From the NCBI GenBank assembly GCA_016463365.1, contig JAEMRJ010000025.1:1-20413 (forward strand): a DNA stretch of 20,413 bases, read 5' to 3'. The position numbers were made by a program, and so were the translations under genes. Origin of the DNA: Thermoleophilaceae bacterium (GTDB lineage: Bacteria > Actinomycetota > Thermoleophilia > Solirubrobacterales > JACPNS01). Positions 593 to 16,813 of this stretch are shown in pieces. Under the pieces are notes generated by a model that searched no databases, was not told the DNA's origin, and worked only from the letters and a program-made list of their open reading frames with translations. How positions within the stretch are numbered: position 1 is the stretch's first letter; the number at the start of each line of letters is the position of its first letter.

Positions 593-3500
593 ATGCGACC
601 GCAACTGCGTGAAGAGCTAATTACGCAATCCATCGGTGAGGAACTCGCGGCGGCACAAGCTCTGGCCACGCGCGAGGGTCTCGACCCCGGCGAGGCGGTG
701 GAGCGGCTCGTGCGCCATGCGGCGTCCGCGATTCGCCGCGAGCTCGGCGCAGTCGGCGAGGACGCAACTCCCGAAGAACAAGCCAAGTGGATCAACGAGC
801 TAGTCGCGCCGTTCTCTGACGATCCAATCGTGATTCCGCCCGAGATGCTCTACGGCCTCGGAGACCCGCTCCCACCTCGACCGACGATTCCGCTCACCTC
901 GAGTGATCTGCTGTTCAACGGAAATGGCCAGCCGCGAATCGGCAGCGAACTCAAGGCGGAGCTCAGAAGTGCGAAGGACGTAGACCTGATTTGTGCCTTC
1001 GTCATTCGGACCGGCATCCGTGTCTTGCGCGAAGAACTAAAGGATGTCGTCGACCGGGGAGGGCGTGTGCGGGTGATCACTACGTCCTATATGGGTGCCA
1101 CAGATCCGCGCGCATTGAACGAACTCTGCGAACTCGGGGCCGAGGTTCGCGTCGATTTCGATGCACGCTCGACCAAGCTCCACGCAAAGAGCTGGCTGAT
1201 CGAACGTGAGGGCGGGCTGACGACCGCTTTCGTCGGTTCCTCCAATCTCTCGCACACCGCACTTCTCGACGGACTCGAATGGAATGTGCGCCTCTCAACG
1301 GCCGATGCGCCGACCGTCGTCTCGCGTGTTCGTGCCGCATTTGAGACCACCTGGGAGAATCCTCATTTCGAGCAATACACACCTGCTCGAGAGCAAGAAC
1401 TTCGTGAATCCCTGAAGCGACCGACCACTTCTGGCCTGGAGATCGATTTCAGCGGAATCGATGTCACCCCCTACCGGCACCAAGAACAGATTCTTGAGCA
1501 ACTTACTGCGGCCAGGGAGCGACACGACCATCATCGGAACCTAATCGTTGCCGCGACGGGAATCGGAAAGACGGTCGTCGCTGCCATTGACTACCGCCGA
1601 CTGTGCGAGAAGGCCGGACGCGATCTGAAGCTGCTCTTCGTGGCCCACCGCGCGGAAATTCTCAAGCAGGCGATTGGCACCTACCGCCACGTGCTCAAAG
1701 ACGGCACCTTTGGTGAGCTGCTGGGCGCCGGGGAGCGGCCGACCGACGGCAACCACGTTTTCGCAATTGTGAACAGCCTCAACGATGAGTTCTTCTCGGC
1801 CTTTGCTGCGGATCACTTTGACGTGGTTGTTGTCGACGAGGTCCACCACGGCGTCGCCTCCATGTACACCGCCTTTTTGGAGCATTTTGAGCCGCTCGAG
1901 CTTCTTGGGATGACTGCCACTCCGGAGCGGATGGACGAGAAGGACGTCTTGGCGCTCTTCGACGATCGAGTTGCCTATGAGTTGCGTCTCTGGGAAGCGA
2001 TTGACGAGGGTTTTCTCTCCCCATTTCAATATTTCGGCGTGGCTGATGAGACCGACCTAAGCATCGTTAGTTGGACTAACGGCGACTACAACCGAAGTGA
2101 ACTGAGCAACCTCCTGACCGGCGACGACTACCGCGTTGGAAAGATTCTCGCTGCCATAACTGACATCGTCGACAACCCAGAAGCGATGCGCGCCCTCGGA
2201 TTCTGCGTGACAGTCGATCACGCGGAGTTCATGGCGGAACGATTCACCTCTGCCGGACTCGCAGCCGAAGCTGTGAGCGGAAATACGCCTCACGATCAAC
2301 GGAGCAAGATCCTTCGTCGGTTAGCAATCGGCGAACTTCGAGCGGTGTTCTCAGTCGATGTCCTCGGAGAAGGGGTCGACGTGCCAAACGTTGACACGAT
2401 CCTCCTGCTCCGGCCAACACAGTCAGCAACAGTTCTCACCCAGCAGATCGGCCGAGGCCTTCGGAGGGCCGAGAACAAGCGATGTCTGACAATCATCGAC
2501 CCGATTGGTCAGCATCACCGACGTTTCAGATTCGACCGTCGCCTGGCCGCCTTGCTCGATTTAACGCGAGGGACTGCGCTGCACCAGCTCGAGAACGACT
2601 TTCCCTACCTCCCATCGGGTTGCGATATTTCGCTCGACCGTGTGGCCACAGAACGGATTGTTCAGAATCTCCGCGACGCGCGCAGGCTCGATGAATGGCC
2701 CGCCGTGGCTGAAGACCTGAAGGATCTCGGCGATACCTCGCTGGCCGGCTTCCTCGCCGCAACGCAACGAGAGCTGAAAGATGTGTACCGAACGAACGAA
2801 CGGTCGTGGACACAGCTACGCGCGAAGGCCGGCCAGCTCGACCTTGCCGACGCAACCGACGATGAACTCGCGCTCCTACGCACACCTCGGCGGATGCTGC
2901 ATATCGACGACCGCGAGCGGTGCGCGTTTTTCGTGAAGGTGCTCTCCAGCGAAACGGCACCGCAACTGGCCGAATTCGACGAACGCGGAAGGCGGCTACT
3001 GAAGACGCTCGCATTCAGCCTGTGGACCAGTCGCTCATTTGACTCTCACGACCATGCTCTTGCCGTCGCGTGGAAGTACCCCCGCGTTCGTGATGAGCTC
3101 GTTGAATTGCTCACCTACCTTGACGACACGAGTGAAACCGTGCCCAAGTTCAGCGGGCTGGACCCCCGCATCCCGCTCGCGGTTCACGCTCGATACAGAA
3201 AGCTCGAGGCCCTCGTGGCGATCAAGTCCGCAGACTCTCGACCAAACATGCAGGGCGGAGTTGACTGGACGGACTCCGAAAAAATCGACTCGCTCTTCGT
3301 TGACATCAACAAGTCCGAGCGCGACTATTCACCAACAACGATGTACAACGACTACGCGATCTCTGCGTCGCATTTTCACTGGGAGTCGCAGTCGCGAACG
3401 CGCGAAGACAGCGGAGTAGGCCAGCGATACATCCATCACGAACGCGATGGGTCGACAGTGTTGCTCTTCATGCGTGAGCGCAAAGAGCAACCGTATTGGT

Positions 3501-3613
3501 TCCTCGGTCCAGTCTCTTACGTGTCGCATGCCGGCGAGCGTCCGATGTCGATCACGTGGAAGCTGAAGACGCCCATGCCGGAGTCAATCCTCGCGGCAGC
3601 CCGCCCGCTATAA
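593..3613 (+). CDS. PLD-like nuclease / SF2 helicase / DUF3427 fusion protein
   Basis: A 1006-residue protein with three visible parts. Residues about 105-260 form a phospholipase-D-type nuclease domain with the HxK signature (HAK, His197 and Lys199) followed by GSSN (215-218). Residues about 295-630 form a superfamily 2 helicase of the COG1061 type: Walker A AATGIGKT (320-327), DEVHH box (415-419), TATPERMD (441-448) and motif VI QQIGRGLRR (617-625). The rest, up to the C-terminus, resembles DUF3427, including a conserved-looking segment with SPTTMYNDYAIS. Proteins of this architecture are presumed DNA-processing enzymes and are often found among defence genes; the substrate is unknown. ATG 593 is the first possible start after an in-frame TAG at 581. 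It has no SD, so leaderless or weak initiation is likely. The toxin-antitoxin genes that follow fit an accessory island. Confidence 0.88.
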   Translation: MRPQLREELITQSIGEELAAAQALATREGLDPGEAVERLVRHAASAIRRELGAVGEDATPEEQAKWINELVAPFSDDPIVIPPEMLYGLGDPLPPRPTIPLTSSDLLFNGNGQPRIGSELKAELRSAKDVDLICAFVIRTGIRVLREELKDVVDRGGRVRVITTSYMGATDPRALNELCELGAEVRVDFDARSTKLHAKSWLIEREGGLTTAFVGSSNLSHTALLDGLEWNVRLSTADAPTVVSRVRAAFETTWENPHFEQYTPAREQELRESLKRPTTSGLEIDFSGIDVTPYRHQEQILEQLTAARERHDHHRNLIVAATGIGKTVVAAIDYRRLCEKAGRDLKLLFVAHRAEILKQAIGTYRHVLKDGTFGELLGAGERPTDGNHVFAIVNSLNDEFFSAFAADHFDVVVVDEVHHGVASMYTAFLEHFEPLELLGMTATPERMDEKDVLALFDDRVAYELRLWEAIDEGFLSPFQYFGVADETDLSIVSWTNGDYNRSELSNLLTGDDYRVGKILAAITDIVDNPEAMRALGFCVTVDHAEFMAERFTSAGLAAEAVSGNTPHDQRSKILRRLAIGELRAVFSVDVLGEGVDVPNVDTILLLRPTQSATVLTQQIGRGLRRAENKRCLTIIDPIGQHHRRFRFDRRLAALLDLTRGTALHQLENDFPYLPSGCDISLDRVATERIVQNLRDARRLDEWPAVAEDLKDLGDTSLAGFLAATQRELKDVYRTNERSWTQLRAKAGQLDLADATDDELALLRTPRRMLHIDDRERCAFFVKVLSSETAPQLAEFDERGRRLLKTLAFSLWTSRSFDSHDHALAVAWKYPRVRDELVELLTYLDDTSETVPKFSGLDPRIPLAVHARYRKLEALVAIKSADSRPNMQGGVDWTDSEKIDSLFVDINKSERDYSPTTMYNDYAISASHFHWESQSRTREDSGVGQRYIHHERDGSTVLLFMRERKEQPYWFLGPVSYVSHAGERPMSITWKLKTPMPESILAAARPL

Positions 3614-5252: not shown

Positions 5253-5558
5253 ATGTCCTCAGACGACTCGCATTTCCTCGCGGTCCAGGGCCGCGGTCTG
5301 ATCACGCTGCCAGCGGACCTGCGTCGGCGCCATGGGCTCGACGAGCCCGGCGCCCAGGTGGAAGTGCGCGAACGCGAGGACGGCGTAATCGAACTCATCC
5401 CGCACCGGGCAGTGCCAGCAGATCAACGCTGGTTCTGGACGAAGGAGTGGCAGCAGATGGAGCGCGAGGCGGACGAAGACATCGCCGCCGGTCGCGTGAC
5501 CACATACGACTCCGCAGAAGAATTTGTTGACGCCATGAAACAGCTCGTCGATCCGTGA
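5253..5558 (+). CDS. AbrB/SpoVT-type antitoxin
   Basis: 101 residues. The N-terminal half (residues about 8-50) is a swapped-hairpin AbrB domain: FLAVQGRGLITLPADLRRRH, then EVREREDGVIELIP. This DNA-binding fold is common in type II antitoxins. The acidic, helical C-terminal half (EWQQMEREADEDIAAGRVTT, then SAEEFVDAM) is typical of the tail that wraps and inhibits a RelE-like toxin. It ends in a GTGA overlap with the toxin gene. It probably represses its own promoter with the toxin as co-repressor. The start at ATG 5253 has no SD, consistent with a leaderless message. Confidence 0.85.
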   Translation: MSSDDSHFLAVQGRGLITLPADLRRRHGLDEPGAQVEVREREDGVIELIPHRAVPADQRWFWTKEWQQMEREADEDIAAGRVTTYDSAEEFVDAMKQLVDP

Positions 5559-5869
5559 AGTTTCGAACCACGAATCGCTTCGAGCGCGACCTGAGGGCGC
5601 TCGCGAAGCGTCGTCAGGCCGAGCTTTTCCTGGAGGTCGTCGGCGGCAAGTTCACGCCGGCGGCCGAACGGTTCGTGAACGACCCGGGCGCCGGGTGGCC
5701 CAAAGGCCTTCGTGTGAAGAGCGTCGCCGACACTCCCGGCGTCTGGGAGTTCACATGGAGCATGAAGAATCCGGAAGGGCGAGCAACGTTTGAGTGGATC
5801 GCGATCGACGGTGAGCCGGCGGTGCTCTGGCGACGGGTCGGCGATCACTCGATCTTCAGCGACAGTTAG
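5555..5869 (+). CDS. RelE/ParE-like toxin
   Basis: 104 residues starting at a GTG whose last two bases overlap the TGA of the antitoxin (GTGA), so translation is coupled. The N-terminal helical hairpin (KFRTTNRFERDLRALAKRR) and the C-terminal strand GEPAVLWRRVGDHSIF match the RelE/ParE fold. RelE members cut mRNA on the ribosome and ParE members poison gyrase; the sequence alone does not decide between these. Genes of this type form a stable complex with the upstream AbrB-type antitoxin. It converges on the HerA-like gene with 6 bases between the stops and no visible terminator. Confidence 0.75.
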   Translation: MKFRTTNRFERDLRALAKRRQAELFLEVVGGKFTPAAERFVNDPGAGWPKGLRVKSVADTPGVWEFTWSMKNPEGRATFEWIAIDGEPAVLWRRVGDHSIFSDS

Positions 5870-7532: not shown

Positions 7533-8096
7533 CTATTCGCAGCTCGTGGTGAAAACAATCAGGCTCGTCACCCGACTGCCGCGCACGCGAGCAATCACGC
7601 TCGGCACCCTGCCTGCGGCGCAATCACTGCGATGCGTCGAAAGGATGTAGCCCTTGGCGCCGCAGTAGTGGAGCGGCTTGTTGCTGCACCTGGCGACAGA
7701 CTTCTTCCTTGCTTTCTTGGCGCTGCTGCCCGGGCGGATGCCGTTCGACGTGTGCCAGATTGAAGACGTCAGTTGAGCGCGGCCGAATAGACCCTGTTCA
7801 CAGGCATCCACGTCTGTGCCATAGGTGTTCAGGTCGACCTTCATGCCCAGCTCATTCCAACGCTTCTGGCAGCCGTAGCCATCGTTTGTGTACTGAGTTG
7901 AATCCGAAGACCCAAAGTTCGCGTCCAGATTCGCAGGGTCATCGCCCTGCCAACTTTCGACGAACCCCGCGAATTGCGCCGCTCCCCAGAGGCCGACCAG
8001 GTAGTCGTCGGCCGAGGCGGCAGGCGCCAGCGAGCAGGTTGCAATCAGTGTGACCACTGTTGCCAGCAACGCAGACCTGACAATGCGGGTGCTCAT
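7533..8096 (-). CDS. exported hypothetical protein
   Basis: 187 residues with a clear signal peptide: positive start, hydrophobic core LLATVVTLIATCSLA, and a probable cleavage site after ASA at about residue 29. The mature part has several cysteines, including the last-but-one residue, suggesting disulfides in an extracellular protein. A basic stretch (SSAKKARKKSVARC) is notable. I do not recognise a family. The ATG lies one base after the stop of the PPC-domain gene (TGA-g-ATG), so the two are translated together and probably act in the same place. Confidence 0.72.
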   Translation of the reverse strand: MSTRIVRSALLATVVTLIATCSLAPAASADDYLVGLWGAAQFAGFVESWQGDDPANLDANFGSSDSTQYTNDGYGCQKRWNELGMKVDLNTYGTDVDACEQGLFGRAQLTSSIWHTSNGIRPGSSAKKARKKSVARCSNKPLHYCGAKGYILSTHRSDCAAGRVPSVIARVRGSRVTSLIVFTTSCE

Positions 8097-8097
8097 C

Positions 8098-9225
8098 TCA
8101 GCGGATCGATATCGTCGCCGACCGCGTCCCGACTCCGGGGACGGTGAAACGCAACTTGTACTTCTTGTGCCGTCGGAGCGATCCCGTTGGAATCTTCGCC
8201 ACTCCGGATCGAATCGCCGAGGTTCCGCGCTTCACAAGATTTCCCTTTCGGCGGAGCGTCCAGGTAAGGCTCGTCGCTGATGAGTTCTCGACGTAGATTC
8301 GGATCGAGCGTCCGCGCTTCACCTTCCGGCTTGCAATCCAGAAGTACGGCGCGGGGTAGCCGATCGCAGAAGCGGGCGAGAGCTGTAGTCGGTATCGAGC
8401 TCCCAAGGACCCCCACAGCCGCACGTAGTAAGTCGCAGAATACGGGACGCTGTAGGAGCTGGCGTTGGAAGTATTCGCCGCCGGTGAGAGAGCGACAACG
8501 GACGATGACGTCGCCGAGGTCAGAAGCTCGGCATTGGCCTGGACAGATCCGGTGGAGAATTCCATCGTCAATGTGGTTCCTCCGAGCAGCGGCACATAGA
8601 GCCAATCCACATCGTTGTCGGTCTCGATCACTCCGGTGTAGACGACATCTGCGCTCAGAGGACCATTGGCCTGCCCCTCAAAATCGTTCGGTTCGCTTGT
8701 GGCGACCTTTGGAAGCGCCGGAAGCGGCGATGAATCCACAACATCTGTAGCTCCGCCGCCTGCTCCGGTGAATCCAACTGTGTAATTGCAGCTCCCGGAG
8801 TTTCTTGTGCTGACGACGATCTTCGCGATGAACGACGGTCCTCCGTAGATGCCGGGGGTCGTCACCGCATCGGTGTCAGATTCATTGTCATACAAATATG
8901 AAGCTTCGGCAATGTCAGTGCCGTCGAGCGTTTCAACTTCGAACTCCCCTGCGCTGCACTGAGCCGCCGAGAAGTGGATCTCGATCTGCCGCTGCGGGCG
9001 CAGACGCACAAGAAAGAAGTCCTGATCCGAACCTGAAGCGACTTGTCCGGAGGCGCCGCCAGGACCGATCGGCCCCGTCATCTGGAAAATGTCGTCGTTG
9101 GGTTCGATCTCGGACGTTGGGAGCGCCTGTGCGGTTGGGGCGCCGAAGAGGGCCATCGCGACGGCAAGTGGCGCCAAGAAGAATGGAAGCCTTGCGATAG
9201 GGCGGGCTCGTGGAATTGCGGACAT
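8098..9225 (-). CDS. exported protein with two PPC-like domains
   Basis: 375 residues. The signal peptide ends near AQA at residue 34. Two pre-peptidase C-terminal (PPC)-like beta domains follow, each opening with the usual EPND and closing with an Asp-rich aromatic strand: EPNDD (41-45) with GSDQDFFLVRL (65-75), and SEPNDFEGQ (about 177-185) with DNDVDWLYVPL. The last 100 residues look like an Ig-like beta sandwich rich in Arg/Lys. PPC domains usually accompany secreted proteases or sit alone on surface proteins; no protease domain is present. A weak GAAAGAGA-type SD precedes ATG 9225. It is the first gene of a two-gene unit with the exported protein downstream. Confidence 0.78.
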   Translation of the reverse strand: MSAIPRARPIARLPFFLAPLAVAMALFGAPTAQALPTSEIEPNDDIFQMTGPIGPGGASGQVASGSDQDFFLVRLRPQRQIEIHFSAAQCSAGEFEVETLDGTDIAEASYLYDNESDTDAVTTPGIYGGPSFIAKIVVSTRNSGSCNYTVGFTGAGGGATDVVDSSPLPALPKVATSEPNDFEGQANGPLSADVVYTGVIETDNDVDWLYVPLLGGTTLTMEFSTGSVQANAELLTSATSSSVVALSPAANTSNASSYSVPYSATYYVRLWGSLGARYRLQLSPASAIGYPAPYFWIASRKVKRGRSIRIYVENSSATSLTWTLRRKGNLVKRGTSAIRSGVAKIPTGSLRRHKKYKLRFTVPGVGTRSATISIR

Positions 9226-9393: not shown

Positions 9394-10488
9394 TCATGTC
9401 GGACCCGGGGCTGCGCCGGTGTTCTGGTCTGGAGTCGCTGGAGCGGGGTTCGTATTTCCTTTGCTCTTCGGCTGAAGGGAAGGCGCCCGTGGCGCGACCG
9501 GGCGGCCGTCGTTGCCAGTACGGTTGGGCGATATGTCTTCCAGTGGCTTCACTTTGATTCGCTTCGCCCTCTTGCGCTCGGCCGGCGCAGCCGTAGAGGG
9601 ACTGGAGCCGATCGGCGGGACGTTCGCATACCAGCGGCTCATTCTCGACGCTGCATCCAGAACCAACTGACTGCGTTTCTCTGAGCGCGATGTCGCCAGG
9701 TCGCTCGCCGTCTTCTCGCGACTCTCACCGCGGACCAGGAGGCCGGACACGCCAGCGAGCAGCGCTGCGTCGACGCCATTTCGATCTGTCTCCATGAGCA
9801 CCGTCAGATCTGAAGCAAGGCTCTTCAACCCCTCTGGCATGCCGCCACTCACACGTTCGACGAACACGGTTGCATTGCGGTTCACGAAGAGCGCGAGGCA
9901 TTTGCGCAACGCGGCCGAGTCGGCAGAGCCGGCCGACGGTAGACGGAAGACGGGCACCGCCCCGCCGCTGTAGAGTCCATCGGCAATCGCGCAGCCGTAG
10001 CGGTTGGCAGCGAGAAACCCGGTCGGGAGGATCAATGCCGAGACCCCAAGTCGGCGAAGCCTGACTCCGGCGTCAACCGAGGCGTTGCGCACGCGACGCT
10101 TTTCGCTCGAAGTCGCACTGAGCCATTTCTGGGAGTGGTCCAAGAACGCTTTGACCAATGCGACCGGGTCGTCCTCGGATATCCCGATATGAACGGTATT
10201 CAAAGGCTCGCCTTCGGCGCTCGCCGAGTCGATTTGCGCGGCACTGAAAATGTTTGCGCGGGCAACCTCCACGAGGCTCGGCACCCGCGCGCCGGCCGGT
10301 GCGCTGCCGATCGGCTTTCCGACATCCATGACGACGACCGAGTTGGCTGCGAAGGCTGCCTCGCGCTCGCTCGGTCCGTCCGCCTGCGCGACGATTGTCG
10401 ACGCCGCGGCAGCCATCAAGAATGTCGAGAACGCCGCGACGGCGAACACCGCGATGAGACTCCGCGAGATGCTGGTAGAGGCGGTCAT
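9394..10488 (-). CDS. exported or anchored protein of unknown function, last gene of the Ubl operon
   Basis: 364 residues from ATG 10488, which overlaps the stop of the upstream MPN- gene (ATGA); this coupling decides the start over a longer frame to 10545. Residues about 9-34 form a hydrophobic signal or anchor segment (SRSLIAVFAVAAFSTFLMAA) with a possible cleavage site after VAQA. A globular middle follows, with an alternating beta/alpha pattern (VSALILPTGFLAANRYGCAI). The last 70 residues are Pro/Arg/Asn-rich and probably disordered, ending GAAPGPT. I do not recognise a family. Its coupling to a membrane-tethered MPN-like protein suggests an outer-face partner or a client of the conjugation system. 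Confidence 0.72.
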   Translation of the reverse strand: MTASTSISRSLIAVFAVAAFSTFLMAAAASTIVAQADGPSEREAAFAANSVVVMDVGKPIGSAPAGARVPSLVEVARANIFSAAQIDSASAEGEPLNTVHIGISEDDPVALVKAFLDHSQKWLSATSSEKRRVRNASVDAGVRLRRLGVSALILPTGFLAANRYGCAIADGLYSGGAVPVFRLPSAGSADSAALRKCLALFVNRNATVFVERVSGGMPEGLKSLASDLTVLMETDRNGVDAALLAGVSGLLVRGESREKTASDLATSRSEKRSQLVLDAASRMSRWYANVPPIGSSPSTAAPAERKRAKRIKVKPLEDISPNRTGNDGRPVAPRAPSLQPKSKGNTNPAPATPDQNTGAAPGPT

Positions 10489-11129
10489 GAGAACGGCCAG
10501 GCTCCTCCGCCCGTCGCGGCCCAGGCTACAAGTCCCGCCGCGCAACCCAGGGCAGCTGCGGCGGCGACCTGCGGCGAGAACTGGAAACGCGGCTCCACCA
10601 GCGGAGCAATCCCAAGCATCTCGTGAAGATCACCGCGCCCGAGGCTGACGATTCTGCCCGCGGAGTCGCAAACATATGCCGCAATCTTCGCCGCAACCGG
10701 GTCAACGCAGAGCATCACGTAGTTCCCACCAGGGAAGTAGTGCTGGTGGGTTTCGACGTCGACCTCCGTCGGCACGGCACCGAGGTTGGGGCGTGAGCAG
10801 TACCAGCCGATGACGGTGGAATCCGGGTAGTGGGTCGAGCGCGCCTCGTGAACCCACCCCCAACTTGACCGGTCGAACGCGACGGCGCCGATCGCACCCT
10901 TTTCGACTGTCGCGACGATCCCGTTGATCTGCGGCCTTCCCTCGAACTCGACGCCGAGGATCGCGCCCGCCGCCGTTGACTTTCGATCCGCCAGAACATG
11001 CTTCAGGAAGCCATCGAGTACGCCCGGTGCCCACGCGCCAAAATCGCCACGGTCATCACGATCCTCGTGGGGAAGCTCGCGGGCCGCATCGACCGGTTCG
11101 CTTACCAGTTGCTGGTCGTGTTCCGTCAT
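10485..11129 (-). CDS. catalytically dead JAMM/MPN- paralogue with C-terminal membrane anchor
   Basis: 214 residues. Residues about 40-165 align by eye along the whole MPN fold with the JAMM protein of the same operon: HVLAD against HVFAH, VAFDRSSWGWVHEA against LTFTQDAWEEIHSA, VIGWYCSRP against IVGWYHSHP. The metal site is destroyed: the glutamate is replaced by Thr52, the two histidines by Cys111 and Arg113, the serine by Thr121; only Asp124 is kept. It should therefore be an MPN- scaffold, as Rpn8 is to Rpn11 or CSN6 to CSN5 in eukaryotes. A C-terminal hydrophobic segment (PQVAAAAALGCAAGLVAWAA, about 186-205) probably anchors it in the membrane. The first 35 residues are acidic and disordered. 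Confidence 0.78.
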   Translation of the reverse strand: MTEHDQQLVSEPVDAARELPHEDRDDRGDFGAWAPGVLDGFLKHVLADRKSTAAGAILGVEFEGRPQINGIVATVEKGAIGAVAFDRSSWGWVHEARSTHYPDSTVIGWYCSRPNLGAVPTEVDVETHQHYFPGGNYVMLCVDPVAAKIAAYVCDSAGRIVSLGRGDLHEMLGIAPLVEPRFQFSPQVAAAAALGCAAGLVAWAATGGGAWPFS

Positions 11130-11138
11130 GACCCCGGC

Positions 11139-11267
11139 TCAGCCGCCGATCACCGCGACGAGGACGAATCCCACCAGGAAGCCGCCGGCGAGGGCCAGCA
11201 TCGTCCTGCCCGGCCGCTCACCGAGTTCGCGTAGCGCGAGTCGCATCCAATCATTCACGGCAGCCAC
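11139..11267 (-). CDS. 42-residue single-pass membrane miniprotein
   Basis: A short frame fills the 142-base space between the RING gene and the MPN- gene. A GTG at 11267, 4 bases after the RING stop, gives 42 residues: a short amphipathic, charged start (NDWMRLALRELGERPGR) and one membrane segment (TMLALAGGFLVGFVLVAVI) ending in Gly-Gly. GTG 11258 and ATG 11246 are alternative starts. The next gene begins 9 bases after its stop. The gapless arrangement and the clean charged-then-hydrophobic layout support a real gene, perhaps a subunit tying the membrane components together, but there is no homology to lean on. Confidence 0.55.
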   Translation of the reverse strand: MAAVNDWMRLALRELGERPGRTMLALAGGFLVGFVLVAVIGG

Positions 11268-11271
11268 TGGC

Positions 11272-12054
11272 TCAGCATCCGTTCGGCCGTACGCGCATGC
11301 CGTGGCGACCGAGGTTCTCGCGTCCGGAACGGTTGTATGTGGACGGGTCATATCGCCACTCGCCGCCCTCGCGTTGCGCCCAGCTGATGCCCTTGAAGCA
11401 GCGCCGGTCGCTGTACGGGACGGAAAGTTGAAACTCCGCCTCGCGGCCGTCGATCTGCACGCGACTGACCGTGAGCCGATTCGGCTGGATGTTCCCGACC
11501 ATGTCGTGAGGCGAGTAGGCACTACGGAAGATCACGGCGGGGTCGCCGCTCTCACTGAGGTCGCTGATCTGCGGCTTGGCGAGATACCGCAGCGATCCCT
11601 GCCAGTGCCCCTGGTCGATCTGTCGGAATGCGCGCTTGAGGTCCTTGGCGATGGCCGCCGCCTGCGCCTTGCGCGCAGCTTCGGCGCTGCTTGAGCTGGT
11701 TTCGGCGGGCGAGGGCGCGACGGCCGAAGCGGTCGCTGCGCCGGAATCGCCCATCAACTTGACGGCAACCGCGACGATCGCCAACAGCGCGGCGGCGCCG
11801 AGAATTGCGAAGGCGGTGACCAGTACGAACTTTGAGTGTCGGCCCTGTTGTTCTGAGCTGGAGGCGCCGGCTCCGGACCCGGTGCGCTGCGCGTCTTCTC
11901 CGGCGCAACCAGGCTGAACACACCCGCCGTTCTCATCCCAACATTCCGTGTGCATCGGCGTCTCGCACTCCGAGCAGGTGGCGACCGAATCGGTGTCGCG
12001 CAGCATCGTGTGGCAGTACCCACAGCGCGCGCCGCGTCGCGGTGCGGAGTTCAT
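11272..12054 (-). CDS. transmembrane prokaryotic RING-type protein, candidate E3 ligase
   Basis: 260 residues. The N-terminus carries eight metal ligands in a cross-brace-like pattern: C11-x2-C14-x12-C27-x2-C30-x4-H35-x2-C38-x6-C45-x4-C50, including HTECW followed by GGC. This fits the Prok-RING_1 type of treble-clef domain, a family known to occur beside Ubl, E1, E2 and JAB genes and often fused to membrane helices. A Ser/Gly linker leads to one transmembrane helix (about 76-100). After an Ala/Ser-rich spacer comes an outer domain (about 125-250) that looks NTF2-like by its helix-then-strands pattern and a terminal GGEWRYDPST. ATG 12054 overlaps the JAMM stop (ATGA). With the RING inside and a folded domain outside, it could link an envelope signal to E2-Ubl transfer. 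Confidence 0.82.
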   Translation of the reverse strand: MNSAPRRGARCGYCHTMLRDTDSVATCSECETPMHTECWDENGGCVQPGCAGEDAQRTGSGAGASSSEQQGRHSKFVLVTAFAILGAAALLAIVAVAVKLMGDSGAATASAVAPSPAETSSSSAEAARKAQAAAIAKDLKRAFRQIDQGHWQGSLRYLAKPQISDLSESGDPAVIFRSAYSPHDMVGNIQPNRLTVSRVQIDGREAEFQLSVPYSDRRCFKGISWAQREGGEWRYDPSTYNRSGRENLGRHGMRVRPNGC

Positions 12055-12728
12055 GCGCCGATCACGATGTTGACAGCAACCAGGACAGCGGCAACGGCGT
12101 GCAGACCAACGCCGGCAATCACACCTATGGCCAAGCCGCTGAGCAGCGGAAGAGTCAGCGCGCCGCGTGCTCGTGGGGCCGCCTGTCCGAGCACGCCTCG
12201 CTCGCGCGACACAAACGTCGGCGAAGGATCGCTGTGTTGTGGCGGCGAGGCCTGAGCCGGCATTTCCGCCAGTCCGCCGCTGAGTTCGGACTCGACGCCC
12301 GGCCAGGCAGTCTCGCGTTCCCAGAACCCACGAAGCTCGCCCTCTTCCCAGCCGAAGAGGCCCTCGCGGCCCCCGATAGGGTCGATCACCAACGCGAGGC
12401 AGCTCGGGTCGGCAAAGAAGTTTCTGTGGATGAACTCGTCATGCCCCGAGAGGAAGATCCCGTGCCCCGGGTGTGAGTGGTACCAGCCGACGATGTCACT
12501 TCCGGTGTGGTCGCGTTCGATCGCGGAGTGAATCTCCTCCCACGCGTCCTGAGTGAAGGTGAGCGAGGTCAGATCGCCCTCGGCAAGATCCGCGCGAACC
12601 GACCCCTGGAGCAGGGCGCGCCCTTCTCCGAGCCGCGCGCCGACGAGTACGCCCCCGACTTCTGCGCCGGGATGCGCGAAGACATGCTCGTAGATGACAT
12701 CGCGGACGCGAACTGTGTAGCCGGACAT
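12051..12728 (-). CDS. JAMM/MPN+ metallopeptidase with C-terminal membrane segment
   Basis: 225 residues. A complete JAMM zinc site is present: Glu23 (in GAEVGGVLVG), then H84-x-H86-x7-S94-x2-D97 in WYHSHPGHGIFLSGHDEF. This is the signature of Rpn11/CSN5-type isopeptidases, so the likely job is to remove the ubiquitin-like protein from targets or to process it. A disordered Pro/Ser linker (about 150-180) leads to a hydrophobic C-terminus (LTLPLLSGLAIGVIAGVGLH onwards) long enough for one helix or a hairpin in the membrane, tethering the enzyme at the inner face. The start is ATG 12728; a GTG at 12746, overlapping the E1 stop as GTGA, would add six residues and is equally possible. Confidence 0.9.
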   Translation of the reverse strand: MSGYTVRVRDVIYEHVFAHPGAEVGGVLVGARLGEGRALLQGSVRADLAEGDLTSLTFTQDAWEEIHSAIERDHTGSDIVGWYHSHPGHGIFLSGHDEFIHRNFFADPSCLALVIDPIGGREGLFGWEEGELRGFWERETAWPGVESELSGGLAEMPAQASPPQHSDPSPTFVSRERGVLGQAAPRARGALTLPLLSGLAIGVIAGVGLHAVAAVLVAVNIVIGA

Positions 12729-12742
12729 GCCGCGTTCGCCGG

Positions 12743-13906
12743 TCACGCGCTGACCACCATTTGAACTCGATCGACTGCGTTTGGCGCGATCAGTGAAACC
12801 ACGTCTTGTCTCGGAAGTCCAAGATCGGCAAGCTCCAGCGCGTCGAACGCTTTGGGAAGTGGTTCGGCGAAGCGATTCGCGAGCTCTGCCTCGAGCTCGC
12901 TCCCGCACTTGGCGCAGGTCACCGCTTCAGCGCCGAGGCGCGCGGCGATCACGTTGGGGTGCAGCTCAAGCTCACATTCTCGGCAGGAGAGCTGCGTGAC
13001 GACCTCGTGGTCGAACTGGACGTACGCACCGTCCCCGAGCTCTTCGGTTGCGCGCGCCAGAACTTCTGCGAGCGTGGTCCCTGCCGAAATCGATTGCGAC
13101 GTGTCATAGCGGTCATGCGCCAAGCAGCCGGACTTGGCCGGATACTCGACGACGTATGAGTCGTGAGTGGTTCCGTTGAACACGAACCCTTTGCCGACGA
13201 GTGTGTCGCATCCGGGCGCGCCCTGGATGAGCTTGATCGCCTCCTGCACCTGGATTGCTGCGATGAGACTCGCTGAGGTTGCCGTCGTCGGAGTGCGCCC
13301 GTTGGAAATGTCCTCCGCCGAGAGCAGCGCGCAGGATCGACGCTGATTGATCATTGCCAGCGCCCGATCGCTGAGCGTGCACTCATAACACGAAGACTCA
13401 GGCGTGAACACGCGTGCGACGCCGATCAATCCTTCAATCGCCCCGTCGATGTACGGAACTCCCGCCTTCTGTGCGAGTGCGTTCAGCCGCAGACGCGCAA
13501 TGCGACTGTCCAGGCCACCGAGAATCACGTCGTACTCGGCAACCAGACCGACGCCCAGTTCGACGCGCAGGTCTCCGGTCAGCGCCTCGACCTCGACCTC
13601 CGGGTTCAGATCATTCGCTCGCATGGCGACGACGACGGCTTTCGGCTTTCCCACGTCGCTTTCACGCATGAAGACTCCGCGCGACAAATTCGAATGCTCC
13701 ACGTGGTCAAAGTCGACGACCGTGATCCTGCCTACCCCGAGCAGCGCCAGGCACTTGACGAGCTCATTGCCGAGCGCACCGGCGCCGACAACAAGCACGC
13801 GAGCCTCGGACAGCCGCTCCTGATCCCACCAGGCGATCAGTTCCTGCCGGGCGTAGCGACTCTCCGCCTCCTCGACTTCGACGGTGATGCGGGACGCCGC
13901 GGCCAT
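12743..13906 (-). CDS. E1-like ubiquitin-activating enzyme (ThiF/UBA family)
   Basis: 387 residues. The adenylation domain shows the nucleotide loop GAGALG (41-46), Asp65/Asp67 after the next strand, the E1 pair SNLSR (Asn73, Arg76), GKPKA (Lys87) and Asp133. It should adenylate the C-terminal glycine of the neighbouring Ubl. CYEC (173-176) precedes RRSC with Cys192, which sits where eukaryotic E1s such as UBA3 carry the catalytic cysteine, followed by the crossover region and the helix SASLIAAIQVQEAIKLI. This argues for a thioester-forming E1 rather than a ThiF/MoeB-type sulfur carrier. The C-terminal 120 residues contain C308-x2-C311 and C331-x2-C334, probably a zinc ribbon, and may recruit E2. 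It starts 3 bases after the Ubl stop. Confidence 0.92.
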   Translation of the reverse strand: MAAASRITVEVEEAESRYARQELIAWWDQERLSEARVLVVGAGALGNELVKCLALLGVGRITVVDFDHVEHSNLSRGVFMRESDVGKPKAVVVAMRANDLNPEVEVEALTGDLRVELGVGLVAEYDVILGGLDSRIARLRLNALAQKAGVPYIDGAIEGLIGVARVFTPESSCYECTLSDRALAMINQRRSCALLSAEDISNGRTPTTATSASLIAAIQVQEAIKLIQGAPGCDTLVGKGFVFNGTTHDSYVVEYPAKSGCLAHDRYDTSQSISAGTTLAEVLARATEELGDGAYVQFDHEVVTQLSCRECELELHPNVIAARLGAEAVTCAKCGSELEAELANRFAEPLPKAFDALELADLGLPRQDVVSLIAPNAVDRVQMVVSA

Positions 13907-13909
13907 TCG

Positions 13910-14170
13910 TCAGCCAGCGGTGATCTCGGCCACAAGGCGCAGCGTGTCGCCCTCGGAAACCTCCGCGTCCGTCAGCGTCTCATCGTCATCGAGCTGACGG
14001 CCGCTCGCCTTGTGGTGGAAGCGGTAGAGCAACGGCGCGCCGTCCGGGCCGACGGCGGGATAATTGAGCAGGTCCACCAACTTCTCGACAATGCGCCCGA
14101 TCGCGACGTCGCCGGGCAACGTCGCTTCTTCGCTCTTGCTGCCGGCCGCGTCAACAATGATGACGTCCAT
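13910..14170 (-). CDS. ubiquitin-like protein, 86 residues
   Basis: A small beta-grasp protein: beta hairpin MDVIIVD to EEATLPGDV, a helix (IGRIVEKLVDLL), YRFHHKASGRQLDDDETLTD as the ubiquitin-like middle and SEGDTLRLVAEI as the last strand, similar to EsaB/YukD-type bacterial Ubls. It ends Thr-Ala-Gly at the translation stop, so no peptide must be removed, but the usual Gly-Gly is replaced by Ala-Gly. AAGGAG (14176-14181) lies 5 bases before the ATG, and the start directly abuts the E2 stop (TGAATG). This is one of the best SDs in the operon, consistent with a need for more Ubl than enzyme. Its E1 and E2 neighbours make conjugation to targets the likely role. Confidence 0.88.
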   Translation of the reverse strand: MDVIIVDAAGSKSEEATLPGDVAIGRIVEKLVDLLNYPAVGPDGAPLLYRFHHKASGRQLDDDETLTDAEVSEGDTLRLVAEITAG

Positions 14171-14746
14171 TCAATCTCCTTGTTCCGGGTAGTCCGGCTT
14201 TGCGCCGGCTTTGTTCGTGCTGCCACTGGCGGGACGGTTGAGGGTGATCTCGACCTCTGCCTCAGGAGGCGTGAGTTCGACCCGGTCAAGCGGAAACAGC
14301 TCTGGATGCGCGTTCGCATAGAGCGCCGCATCGGCGTTCAAGGCGCTGTTGACGTTGAACTCCTGCCACTGGATCATCTCGCCGATGCGCTCGATCACAT
14401 CTGCAATCGACTCGGCTGGAGTCCAGATGTCACCGATGCAGTAGTGACCGGCGACGTTCGGATGAAACACCTCTGAAGTCGCTTCGACGTAAGGTGCGGC
14501 CCGCGGGTAGTCAATCCCCAGACGAATTTTGCAGACGTGCCTGTGAGTGACCCTCGGACGAGTTCCGTCGCGCGTCAGGCCCTTCAGCCGATAAATCACC
14601 TCGTACTCGGTCGGAGGCATGCCCTCGATCGCCTGGACAGTCACATGCTTGTGCCCGGAGAATCGCGAACGCACGGCTTCGTAATCCGATGCCAGTCGGC
14701 GAACTCGCGGAGAAACCGCTCGTGCTGTCGCCTGCGAATCAGCCAC
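14171..14746 (-). CDS. E2 ubiquitin-conjugating-like enzyme
   Basis: 191 residues with a UBC fold. After an N-terminal helix (RVRRLASDYEAVRSRF) and the beta meander come HPN (95-97), the candidate catalytic Cys103 in HYCIG, and Trp108 in IWTP, followed by the helices IADVIERIGEMIQWQ and NVNSALNADAALYANAHPEL, closely matching the C-terminal helices of eukaryotic E2s. It should accept the Ubl from E1 as a thioester and pass it to a target, perhaps with the RING protein. The last 35 residues are disordered. The start is a GTG at 14746 overlapping the stop of the preceding membrane-protein gene by 8 bases; a GGAG lies 10 bases upstream. Confidence 0.9.
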   Translation of the reverse strand: MADSQATARAVSPRVRRLASDYEAVRSRFSGHKHVTVQAIEGMPPTEYEVIYRLKGLTRDGTRPRVTHRHVCKIRLGIDYPRAAPYVEATSEVFHPNVAGHYCIGDIWTPAESIADVIERIGEMIQWQEFNVNSALNADAALYANAHPELFPLDRVELTPPEAEVEITLNRPASGSTNKAGAKPDYPEQGD

Positions 14747-15422
14747 TTGTTATCTGCTCCAGCGTTCGAACAGCGCCGTTGACCAGCCGCAGATTCGGAT
14801 ACGGGTGCGGAGCCTCTTCGAGTTCTTGTGTTTGCAGATTCGATACTGCGCGCTGCACTGCGTCTGCCGCATCATCAACGGTTTCGGTGGCTTCAGATGC
14901 GGCATCACCGCTCAAACGGTTGAGTGAGCCGAGATTGTCGTAAGCATCGAGCAGTTCGTCCTCGGCACCGAGCAGCGCGAGCGTCCCGGCGCGGACCTCG
15001 TCGTTGCCGATCTGCTGCGCCGACTGCTTGGCCGAATCGACCGCGCTCTGCGCACGCGAGACCGAGCTGACGGCACGGTTGAAAGCTGCAACGGTGGTGG
15101 CGTTTCCGACATCTGCGCTGATGTTGCTGACGCGCGCCGAGGGATCGATAAGGATTGTGACCGCCTGGGATTTTGATGTGTCGCGAAAAAGCAGCAGGTA
15201 GACGAGCACGATCGCGAGGAGCGCGATCGCGATAGCGCCGCCGAGCACCCACCACTTGTGTCGCACCAGGAACGGCTCGTCCGGGTGCGGTGCGGGCGTC
15301 ACAGACTCGCCTCCCGGTTCGGCTTCGGCGTTCATGTCCACCGTCACGCCTCGCGACTTGAGCGTGATCACCGCGACGTCGTCGGATTCGACCTCTTCGT
15401 ATGTCTGGTCGTCGTCGATCAA
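14739..15422 (-). CDS. single-pass membrane protein B of the Ubl operon
   Basis: 227 residues. A 50-residue acidic, cytoplasmic N-terminus contains ITLKSRGVTV (19-28). One transmembrane helix follows (about 57-79, after FLVRHKWW), then an outer alpha-helical, coiled-coil-like domain (about 85-190). It is a shorter paralogue of the gene just upstream: both have the ITLKS-x-G motif, FL-x-R before the membrane helix, and an outer segment IGN-x-E-x-R ending in LL-x-AY-x2-L-x4-R (138-169 here). The start is a TTG two bases after the upstream stop, chosen because it keeps the shared motif; no good SD is seen, so translation is probably coupled. I infer a receptor, adaptor or client for the conjugation enzymes. 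Confidence 0.78.
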   Translation of the reverse strand: MIDDDQTYEEVESDDVAVITLKSRGVTVDMNAEAEPGGESVTPAPHPDEPFLVRHKWWVLGGAIAIALLAIVLVYLLLFRDTSKSQAVTILIDPSARVSNISADVGNATTVAAFNRAVSSVSRAQSAVDSAKQSAQQIGNDEVRAGTLALLGAEDELLDAYDNLGSLNRLSGDAASEATETVDDAADAVQRAVSNLQTQELEEAPHPYPNLRLVNGAVRTLEQITSG

Positions 15423-15424
15423 TC

Positions 15425-16813
15425 TCAGACGTCCGGCATCGGCGGCGACTTGTACTGGCTCTTTGCCTGCTTCTGGGCAGAGGCGAGTTTCGTTTTGAAG
15501 ATCAGCCAGTTTCTGTCAACCGCGTCAGTCGCGCGGTCATATCCGGGAAAGTACGAGGACTCGGCGACTGTCTCGCTGCTGGACTGCGAGCCCCATGCCT
15601 TCCTCAGCTTCGGAAATGCGCGCACAGACATGTCGAGCGCATGCGCCAGGGCTCCGCGGGCGCCGAGAAGCAACTGGCCGACGTCGTAACCGGCGACGCT
15701 GGACTGGAGCGAACTGCGCTCGCTCTCGAAGTTGTCGACCGTCTCGCCGCCGGAGCTGTAGGTCTGGCTCGGAGGCGCGTCATAGAAGCGGCCGACTTCG
15801 GAACGCTGGGCTTCGAACTGATTTGAGAACGCCGCCAGCTGATCTGCCTGACCGTTGAATCGCAGTCGTTTGGCCTTTTGGGCTTTGAAACGCTTCGTCC
15901 AGCGCGCCATCGCCTTCTTTGCATCCGAGAGAGTTTCGTCCATGTTGTCCACTGCCGACGAGGTCAGGTTTTCGTCGACATCTGGCTTGCGGCCGACCGC
16001 GGTCATCGCGGTGCTCGCGGTGGCAAGTTCACGTTCGGCGTCCTTTGCCTGATCAGTCAGGTCGTCGACAGCCTTCATCTGCTTGCGCTGAACGTCGACG
16101 AGGCCCGCGTACGCATTCAAGAGTGCGTTCTGAGCATCAAGGACCGCGACCGTTGCCACTCGCTCCTCCGTGTTGCCGATCTCATTCGCACGCTGCTGTA
16201 GGCCGCTCATCTTGGCCCTTGCCGACTTCGCAGAGTGCGCCGCCTCTCGGAAGTCGGTGAGTTTGTCGGCGTCATCGATCTTCTCATTCACTGGCGTCAG
16301 AAGCGCGTTGGCGCTGACAGCGATCTTCTCGGACTCCGGGGTGGTGAGACTCTTGACCAGCAGAAATATCCCGAGGACGAGCAGGAGGGCGAAGAAAGCG
16401 GCGAGCGGGATCAACCACTTGCGATTGCGTGAGAGGAATGTCCCTTCCGGTTCGGGCGCGGAAACTGCGGCCGGAGGCTTCTTGGCGGGCGGGCCTCCAG
16501 CAGATTTCCTGGTTGCGGGGCCGGCGGCGGGCTTGGGCCGACTCGCTCTTGGAGCGCCCACTGTGTTGTTCACGCGGGTTGGCGCGTCAGCGCCGCCTTC
16601 GACGTCTTCGAGCGGAACGGTGATCCCGCTCGACTTGAGCGTGATGGCTGGAGCTATTGCAACGGCCTTTTTCGGCCCTTGCATCGCGCGTGCCTGCTCA
16701 GGCGTGGCCTGCTCGATCTCGGGCAGGTCATCTGCGCCGTCGGGTGCGTCGGGCGACCCCTCGCTGTCGCGGCTGGCAATCTTGATCAGATCTTCATCGT
16801 GACTGTCGGCCAT
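15425..16813 (-). CDS. single-pass membrane protein A, first gene of the Ubl operon
   Basis: 462 residues from ATG 16813, with AGGAGG (16822-16827) 8 bases upstream. The cytoplasmic N-terminus (about 130 residues) is disordered, acidic and then Pro/Ala/Lys-rich, and contains ITLKSSGITV (57-66). One transmembrane helix (WLIPLAAFFALLLVLGIFLL, 133-152) precedes a 300-residue outer domain that is mostly helical with heptad-like stretches (for example DLTDQAKDAERELATASTAM), suggesting a long coiled coil. The segment from IGN (212-214) to LLNAYAGL is shared with protein B. No known family is recognised. As the first gene of the operon with the strongest SD, it is probably a major structural or sensing component. 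Confidence 0.8.
   Translation of the reverse strand: MADSHDEDLIKIASRDSEGSPDAPDGADDLPEIEQATPEQARAMQGPKKAVAIAPAITLKSSGITVPLEDVEGGADAPTRVNNTVGAPRASRPKPAAGPATRKSAGGPPAKKPPAAVSAPEPEGTFLSRNRKWLIPLAAFFALLLVLGIFLLVKSLTTPESEKIAVSANALLTPVNEKIDDADKLTDFREAAHSAKSARAKMSGLQQRANEIGNTEERVATVAVLDAQNALLNAYAGLVDVQRKQMKAVDDLTDQAKDAERELATASTAMTAVGRKPDVDENLTSSAVDNMDETLSDAKKAMARWTKRFKAQKAKRLRFNGQADQLAAFSNQFEAQRSEVGRFYDAPPSQTYSSGGETVDNFESERSSLQSSVAGYDVGQLLLGARGALAHALDMSVRAFPKLRKAWGSQSSSETVAESSYFPGYDRATDAVDRNWLIFKTKLASAQKQAKSQYKSPPMPDV

Follow-up and report, generated by a model that had tools for sequence, protein, structure and literature searches.

Putative membrane-centred ubiquitin-like conjugation operon with active and inactive JAMM paralogues in a Thermoleophilaceae bacterium

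We analysed a 20,413-nucleotide stretch of DNA (hereafter the window; contig JAEMRJ010000025.1 of assembly GCA_016463365.1, a Thermoleophilaceae bacterium) that carries a tightly packed nine-gene operon on its minus strand (9394-16813). The operon encodes a ubiquitin-like protein (Ubl), an activating enzyme (E1), a conjugating enzyme (E2), a RING-type protein and a JAMM protein, the last two with transmembrane (TM) segments, and an inactive, TM-bearing JAMM paralogue. The sequences support the pathway chemistry well, and as a composite reading we think it fairly probable that the operon conjugates the Ubl reversibly at the membrane and that this is coupled to the state of the envelope. The initial annotation had likewise proposed a complete, membrane-centred cascade; its completeness, its membrane character and the recurrence of its core in relatives all stand, whereas its preference for an envelope role over defence is not established.

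The open reading frames (ORFs) and coordinates of the nine packed minus-strand genes agree with those annotated initially. The gene order is 462-residue membrane protein, 227-residue membrane protein, E2, Ubl, E1, JAMM, RING, possibly a small TM ORF, 214-residue protein, and exported 364-residue protein. With the preferred starts, neighbouring genes overlap or are less than 20 bases apart, the exception being the stretch near the uncertain small ORF; the nearest genes upstream and downstream of the operon are 179 bp and 168 bp away, respectively. Pfam recovers all five core families, each above its gathering score: UQ_con (E2, 33.1 bits), YukD (Ubl, 44.5 bits against a cut-off of 27), ThiF (E1, 179.1 bits), Prok-RING_1 (38.6 bits), and both Prok-JAB (35.8 bits) and JAB (24.4 bits) for the JAMM; the Pfam ubiquitin model falls below its cut-off on the Ubl. 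These scores bear out the identities first given to the five genes and, by sequence, the claim of a complete cascade; placement of the E2 and the Ubl, fixed beforehand as the point on which the interpretation could fail, gave the UQ_con and YukD matches and left it unrefuted. With PADLOC, the operon proteins matched E1-E2 models, weak JAB models and, for the 462-residue protein, weak coiled-coil-type models. Among the matches listed, NCBIfam gave nothing above a curated cut-off for the ten proteins scanned, the presence of BIL models in the NCBIfam and PADLOC collections being unchecked.

The close E2 family is rare, with 15 proteins in a set of 5.8 billion: the window's own (P0001), 12 close and two distant. 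One distant match (P0014) has 3799 relatives, with two planctomycete names among the best 120 of the 3799. A search of GTDB contigs with E2 alignment A1 returned 23 stretches, none confirmed, while the broader alignment A2 returned 88, of which 41 were confirmed, in 40 loci. These loci come from Solirubrobacter pratensis (Thermoleophilia), Acidimicrobiia, Actinobacteria, Microbacteriaceae, Planctomycetota groups, Armatimonadetes, Zipacnadia, WS1, Syntrophomonas, Gelria, Ignavibacteria, Victivallales and Fibrobacteres. Together with five further regions they make the 45 loci used below. E2, Ubl and E1 occur together in at least 26 of these, with JAMM in at least 24 and with all five core components in at least 17; the counts are lower bounds since many contigs are cut and an overlap filter dropped the visible JAMMs of L051 and L052. 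The core gene set thus recurs in relatives. L053, one of the five further regions, has another kind of small E1/E2-type gene set, next to an ORF that looks J-domain-like by eye, and does not represent this system. Inside the Ubl operon of another locus (L002:8218-8860) lie a gene with a HicB-like antitoxin domain and a 75-residue ORF.

The Ubl (13910-14170) is an 86-residue protein with a YukD/ubiquitin-like beta-grasp fold and the terminus LRLVAEITAG, thus ending in ITAG and not GG. The sequence EI(T/V)AG is kept in all 27 aligned Ubls, where it is terminal in 18 and extended by 1-19 residues in nine. This conserved and sometimes extended end favours conjugation, which we consider likely from sequence. 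The extensions resemble those of pro-ubiquitin, which is trimmed by the Rpn11 of Caldiarchaeum (PMC5654768; this and the other PMC entries are cited for extracts of their text).

The E2 (14171-14746), of the UBC fold, has HPN at residues 95-97, the catalytic Cys103, Trp108 and a C-terminal tail with EVEITL. It belongs to the 14-row alignment A1; the HPN...C...W pattern is present in 53 of the 55 E2 ORFs of the loci, and Rad6-type E2s are the top PDB matches of profile A2. Two E2-type ORFs, each with HPN...C...W, were seen in nine of the 45 loci (L001, L002, L003, L004, L006, L014, L016, L038, L050); the window has one.

The E1 (12743-13906) combines a ThiF domain with a C-terminal UFD-like domain that holds a four-Cys (zinc-ribbon-like) insert. 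Its Cys192 is shared by all 30 of the E1s aligned. The predicted model has a mean confidence score (pLDDT) of 89.6, although Cys192 lies in a low-confidence loop (190-195). In structure comparison MoeB and ThiF match the adenylation half. Of the 50 matches listed, the alignments that reach residue 387 are ubiquitin, SUMO, NEDD8 or ISG15 E1s, and other chains of those E1s stop at about 266 or 344. We read the C-terminal part of the model as UFD-like.

The catalytic JAMM (MPN+; 12051-12728, probably starting at ATG 12728 rather than GTG 12908) has EVGG, HSHP-x6-S-x2-D and a C-terminal TM segment, and the catalytic pattern is kept in 41 of 42 JAMM ORFs, including this one. The best PDB matches are 6fjv for the JAMM and 6fnn for the Ubl, both of which we take to be Caldiarchaeum structures. 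The 214-residue product (10485-11129) is a second protein of the JAB fold (28.2 bits to Pfam JAB, against a cut-off of 22.5) with a C-terminal TM segment at 188-206. Relative to the catalytic JAMMs, its glutamate is replaced by threonine and its HSHP by C(S/A)RP, while the last aspartate is retained. The site residues E, H and H are replaced in all nine members of this pseudo-JAMM (MPN-) family, which comprises the window protein and eight found by search. In a tree the nine stand apart from the catalytic JAMMs with support of 1.0, on a long stem and with a poorly supported sister (0.26). Three of the eight relatives are most likely in the same operon as E2 relatives, their contigs having the same lengths (7587, 21387 and 12548); the other five were not placed. 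The initial part list was right in its nine genes and had not named this inactive paralogue. MPN+ and MPN- proteins, each with a C-terminal TM segment, are therefore encoded together and, by analogy with the eukaryotic pairs discussed below, may form a physical pair.

A hydropathy scan places one TM segment in five of the nine products (the 462- and 227-residue proteins, JAMM, RING and the 214-residue protein) and a signal-like segment at the N terminus of the exported product, the same tally of five membrane products and a sixth exported as was first given. The 462-residue protein, product of the first operon gene (15425-16813), has its segment at 135-153, with a predicted cytosolic N-terminal tail and a large C-terminal part predicted outside. 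Its 227-residue paralogue (14739-15422; phmmer, 1e-16) has one at 59-77. The RING protein (11272-12054) consists of a Prok-RING_1 (C4HC3) finger, one TM segment and a C-terminal domain predicted outside. Across the loci, TM segments were found in 57 of 73 JAMM and RING ORFs (30/40 JAMM, 27/33 RING) and in 4 of 110 other core ORFs (2/30 E1, 2/54 E2, 0/26 Ubl); TM segments on JAMM and RING are thus common in the wider family. LysM was matched in 10 of 50 proteins of the JAMM set and follows the TM segment where sequences were inspected.

Partner membrane genes could be placed by Pfam in 14 cases. Seven are of Trypsin_2 type with a C-terminal TM segment (L001-L004, L006, L012, L049), six of them having an N-terminal hydrophobic segment too; the other seven (L005, L008, L010, L011, L015, L026, L036) have multiple TM segments and carry FHA and/or Yop-YscD_cpl domains. 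A gene in L049 (2189-3841) that adjoins the JAMM gene on the opposite strand matches both the 462-residue (2e-06) and the 227-residue protein (7e-07). The window seems to belong to the trypsin-type branch, with other membrane proteins standing in for the protease. As a separate observation, the multi-TM FHA-type partners hint at a link to Ser/Thr kinase signalling; one further partner gene scanned (L008:9074-9805) has no Pfam family.

In many loci outside the planctomycetes, non-homologous operon proteins share an acidic-hydrophobic motif (acid-phi-x-phi-x-phi; e.g. EVDIDL, DLEIEI, DIDIDL) in their tails: at the E2 C terminus (up to three copies), the E1 and JAMM N termini, the N-terminal side of the RING and the C-terminal tail of the protease. 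The pattern was drawn from three training loci (L002, L003, L049), and L001, L004, L005, L008, L010, L012, L013, L018 and L050-L053 had been seen before the test. Tails were limited to 60 residues (N) or 80 residues (C), those under 8 residues were dropped, predicted TM stretches were masked, and expectations were obtained by shuffling. Outside the training loci the motif was found in 12 of 30 E2 C-terminal tails (2.2 expected), 9 of 27 E1 N-terminal (2.0), 8 of 34 JAMM N-terminal (1.8) and 6 of 25 RING N-terminal tails (0.8), while the opposite sides stayed at expectation (E1 C, 0/23; JAMM C, 1/37; RING C, 1/31; E2 N, 2/29). Flanking genes outside the operons gave 20/286 for N tails (19.0 expected) and 26/286 for C tails (26.1), and other genes within operons 5/38 (1.9) and 8/38 (2.8), respectively. 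A basic-residue version of the motif was not enriched.

In previously unseen loci, 12 of 66 tails match (3.5 expected; opposite sides, 2/74 against 3.5). L006, whose E2 is identical at 164 of 180 positions to that of training locus L002, supplies three of the 12; removing it leaves 9/62 (3.2 expected), and removing L038 as well leaves only 6/57 (2.7 expected). This hold-out is weak, since hardly any of the motif-bearing branch remained unseen. Five of the 12 matches are planctomycete (L016, L021, L023, L024, L026) and may be due to chance. In a set that takes a single locus from each close group and leaves out the training loci, but includes other previously seen loci, 23 of 85 tails match against 5.0 expected (opposite sides, 4/88 against 4.0). 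The motif is thus strong in the trypsin-type branch and not demonstrated in the planctomycete branch. Within the window the rule is satisfied by the E2 alone (EVEITL); the tails of the 462- and 227-residue proteins have related hydrophobic stretches that miss the acidic rule. The motif resembles the SUMO-interacting motif (SIM) consensus. Such motifs occur in the E1, E3 and proteases of SUMO systems (PMC12687455), and by analogy the tails may bind the Ubl non-covalently. A correlation between Ubl residue 30 (K/R) and the E2-tail motif (12/14 against 1/13) was set aside, since it follows a few clades and other columns correlate too, so that it is not independent evidence.

In the mechanism that we propose, the pathway would assemble on the cytoplasmic side of the cell membrane. 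The E1 would adenylate the C-terminal glycine of the Ubl, hold it as a thioester on Cys192 and, with assistance of the UFD-like domain, pass it to Cys103 of the E2. The transmembrane C4HC3 RING would then deliver the charged E2 to membrane-proximal targets, and the tail-anchored JAMM, possibly paired with its inactive tail-anchored paralogue, would take the Ubl off again, while the short tails of the enzymes may hold Ubl non-covalently. Envelope state is the likely input, because the RING C-terminal domain, the 462- and 227-residue proteins and the exported protein have parts predicted outside and because relatives have LysM domains or a trypsin-type protease. A bolder version, which we offer as tentative and would not rely upon, is a bacterial SUMO-like transmembrane signalling system: SIM-like cytosolic tails spread over E1, E2, deconjugase, ligase and membrane protease would serve a single Ubl, the deconjugase would span the membrane and in some lineages grip peptidoglycan through LysM, and damage to the wall or envelope would directly alter the Ubl state of cytosolic targets. 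In the window lineage an inactive JAMM would have been recruited to serve as a second membrane subunit, a situation reached independently of Rpn11/Rpn8 and CSN5/CSN6 but parallel to them.

Several points weigh against the envelope-coupled reading. The TM calls come from a home-made Kyte-Doolittle scan. The AlphaFold model of the RING C-terminal domain, built from four sequences, has a mean pLDDT of 51.5, too poor to name the domain, which makes a sensor role for it a guess; C4HC3 fingers occur in PHD fingers too, so that RING E3 activity is putative. The window JAMM has no LysM match, and neither it nor the RING has the tail motif. Among the 45 loci the 462- and 227-residue proteins were matched in one only (L049) and the exported protein in none. 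About 6 kb from the operon lies a PLD-helicase-DUF3427 gene (593-3613, plus strand) with a strong PADLOC match (848 bits) to a methyl-directed restriction enzyme of type IV, which leaves room for defence. A membrane-based anti-phage system, in which the Ubl would be attached at the envelope to components of phage or host, as happens in BIL-type systems elsewhere, is in our judgement rather unlikely but has further points in its favour. Experimentally studied bacterial Ubl pathways appear to be mainly phage-defence systems (PMC12687455), and the E2, the only component counted across genomes, is patchy in Actinomycetota: it was found in 6 of the 232 genomes from the order, 6 of 399 from the class (among them the L053 genome) and 1 of 246 in a phylum sample, that one being the genome on which the sample was centred. 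This patchiness and the restriction gene leave the initial preference for envelope signalling or quality control over defence unestablished. The E2 is, however, present in 44 of the 148 genomes from the class of one planctomycete locus and in 20 of the 150 from that of another, and LysM, FHA and trypsin-type partners are not specific to defence. When 100 proteins flanking the related loci (from those under 900 residues among 208 candidates of at least 200 residues, with no control set) were compared with PADLOC, 13 families matched at 1e-10 with 1-4 proteins each, including mad3, mad8, AriA, IetA and DpdF; several of the names look to us like broad ATPase or kinase families, and no clear defence island emerges either way.

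Quality control of membrane proteins, with the Ubl as a tag for extraction or proteolysis resembling endoplasmic-reticulum-associated degradation, would suit a membrane RING and JAMM and the trypsin-type protease partner of seven loci. We hold it to be improbable, as the Pfam matches of the operon include no unfoldase and PF00227 is absent from all seven actinobacterial hosts tested (G001-G004, G086, G371, G376), which makes a 20S destination unlikely in those hosts if their assemblies are complete. Overall, PF00227 was matched in 18 of 29 hosts, but it also matches the Escherichia coli and Bacillus subtilis controls; 20S and HslV are therefore indistinguishable by this family, and absence alone is informative. 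That the Ubl instead assists type VII secretion in the manner of YukD/EsaB, without being conjugated, has very little credence, despite its membership of Pfam YukD and an EccD match that is weak and below cut-off (24 against 94.95 bits). The conserved Ubl end, with its extensions, and the adjoining E1, E2 and JAMM genes speak for conjugation, and Pfam scans, which covered 20 proteins of the window but neither relatives nor the remaining genome, showed no type VII family.

Other genes of the window can be described more briefly. The exported or signal-anchored protein (9394-10488) probably starts at ATG 10488 (364 residues) and not at TTG 10545 (383 residues), and no family was found for it in the Pfam, NCBIfam or PADLOC scans. 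Between the RING and 214-residue genes there may be a short TM-coding ORF (11139-11351, minus strand), tentatively a single-TM protein of 70 residues from ATG 11351 or 42 residues from GTG 11267. Just downstream of the operon, two proteins of 187 and 375 residues with signal-peptide-like starts (7533-9225, minus strand) have no Pfam family and are possibly operon members. A gene with a MazE-type antitoxin domain (5253-5869, plus strand) is followed by an overlapping 104-residue ORF with no Pfam match, possibly as a toxin-antitoxin pair.

If the envelope-coupled reading is true, bacterial ubiquitination would extend beyond phage defence to a membrane-working E1-E2-RING-JAMM set whose best PDB matches are eukaryotic and Rpn11-like archaeal-type enzymes, which suggests that ubiquitin-style tagging may let bacteria respond to the state of their own envelope. 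The operon would also be a natural example of an active JAMM retained alongside an inactive paralogue, and would provide a small system for testing non-covalent Ubl-binding tails. In the open-access literature, the search leaving out subscription papers and preprints, we found no report of TM anchoring with LysM in such JAMMs, of a bacterial MPN+/MPN- gene pair or of shared SIM-like tails in bacterial Ubl operons; novelty of these three findings is not proven.

Systems of this kind are known, since complete bacterial Ubl/E1/E2/RING/JAB sets have been predicted before. Burroughs, Iyer and Aravind reportedly predicted in 2011 prokaryotic Ubl systems with E1, E2, RING E3 and JAB. Complete bacterial operons are mentioned in PMC5654768, and PMC7159879 describes a system in which JAB, E1 and RING accompany a Ubl-E2 fusion; a 2014 survey found no complete ubiquitin toolkit in the bacteria that it examined (PMC4327156). 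BIL operons (BilABCD) likewise join Ubl, E1, E2 and JAMM, but BilA has two Ubl domains in a four-gene operon (PMC11354881), whereas the window has a single YukD domain within nine packed genes that add a RING and membrane parts. The ubiquitin operon of Caldiarchaeum subterraneum resembles the window in having ubiquitin, E1, E2, a small RING, an Rpn11-type JAMM and pro-ubiquitin processing; its modifier ends in GG and the extract mentions no membrane anchor (PMC5654768), in contrast to the ITAG end and TM segments found here. The longer last spacing of the C4HC3 RING is as stated for prokaryotic RINGs (PMC11354881).

Among eukaryotes, MARCH/RINGv transmembrane E3 ligases combine a C4HC3 zinc finger with a TM segment, a likeness to the window RING by description, activity here being predicted. 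Catalytic and inactive JAMMs belong to one system in the eukaryotic MPN+/MPN- pairs Rpn11/Rpn8 and CSN5/CSN6; in the window both have C-terminal TM segments, and their physical pairing is putative. The closest comparison remains with the predicted prokaryotic Ubl systems, which have the same core families in one operon. As in these, genes for all five components are adjacent, the E2 has HPN and the catalytic Cys, and the E1 has a UFD-like end. Compared with them, the window is distinguished by separate Ubl and E2 genes, probably by a RING and a JAMM that bear TM segments, by the inactive JAMM paralogue, and by the pair of 462- and 227-residue membrane proteins.

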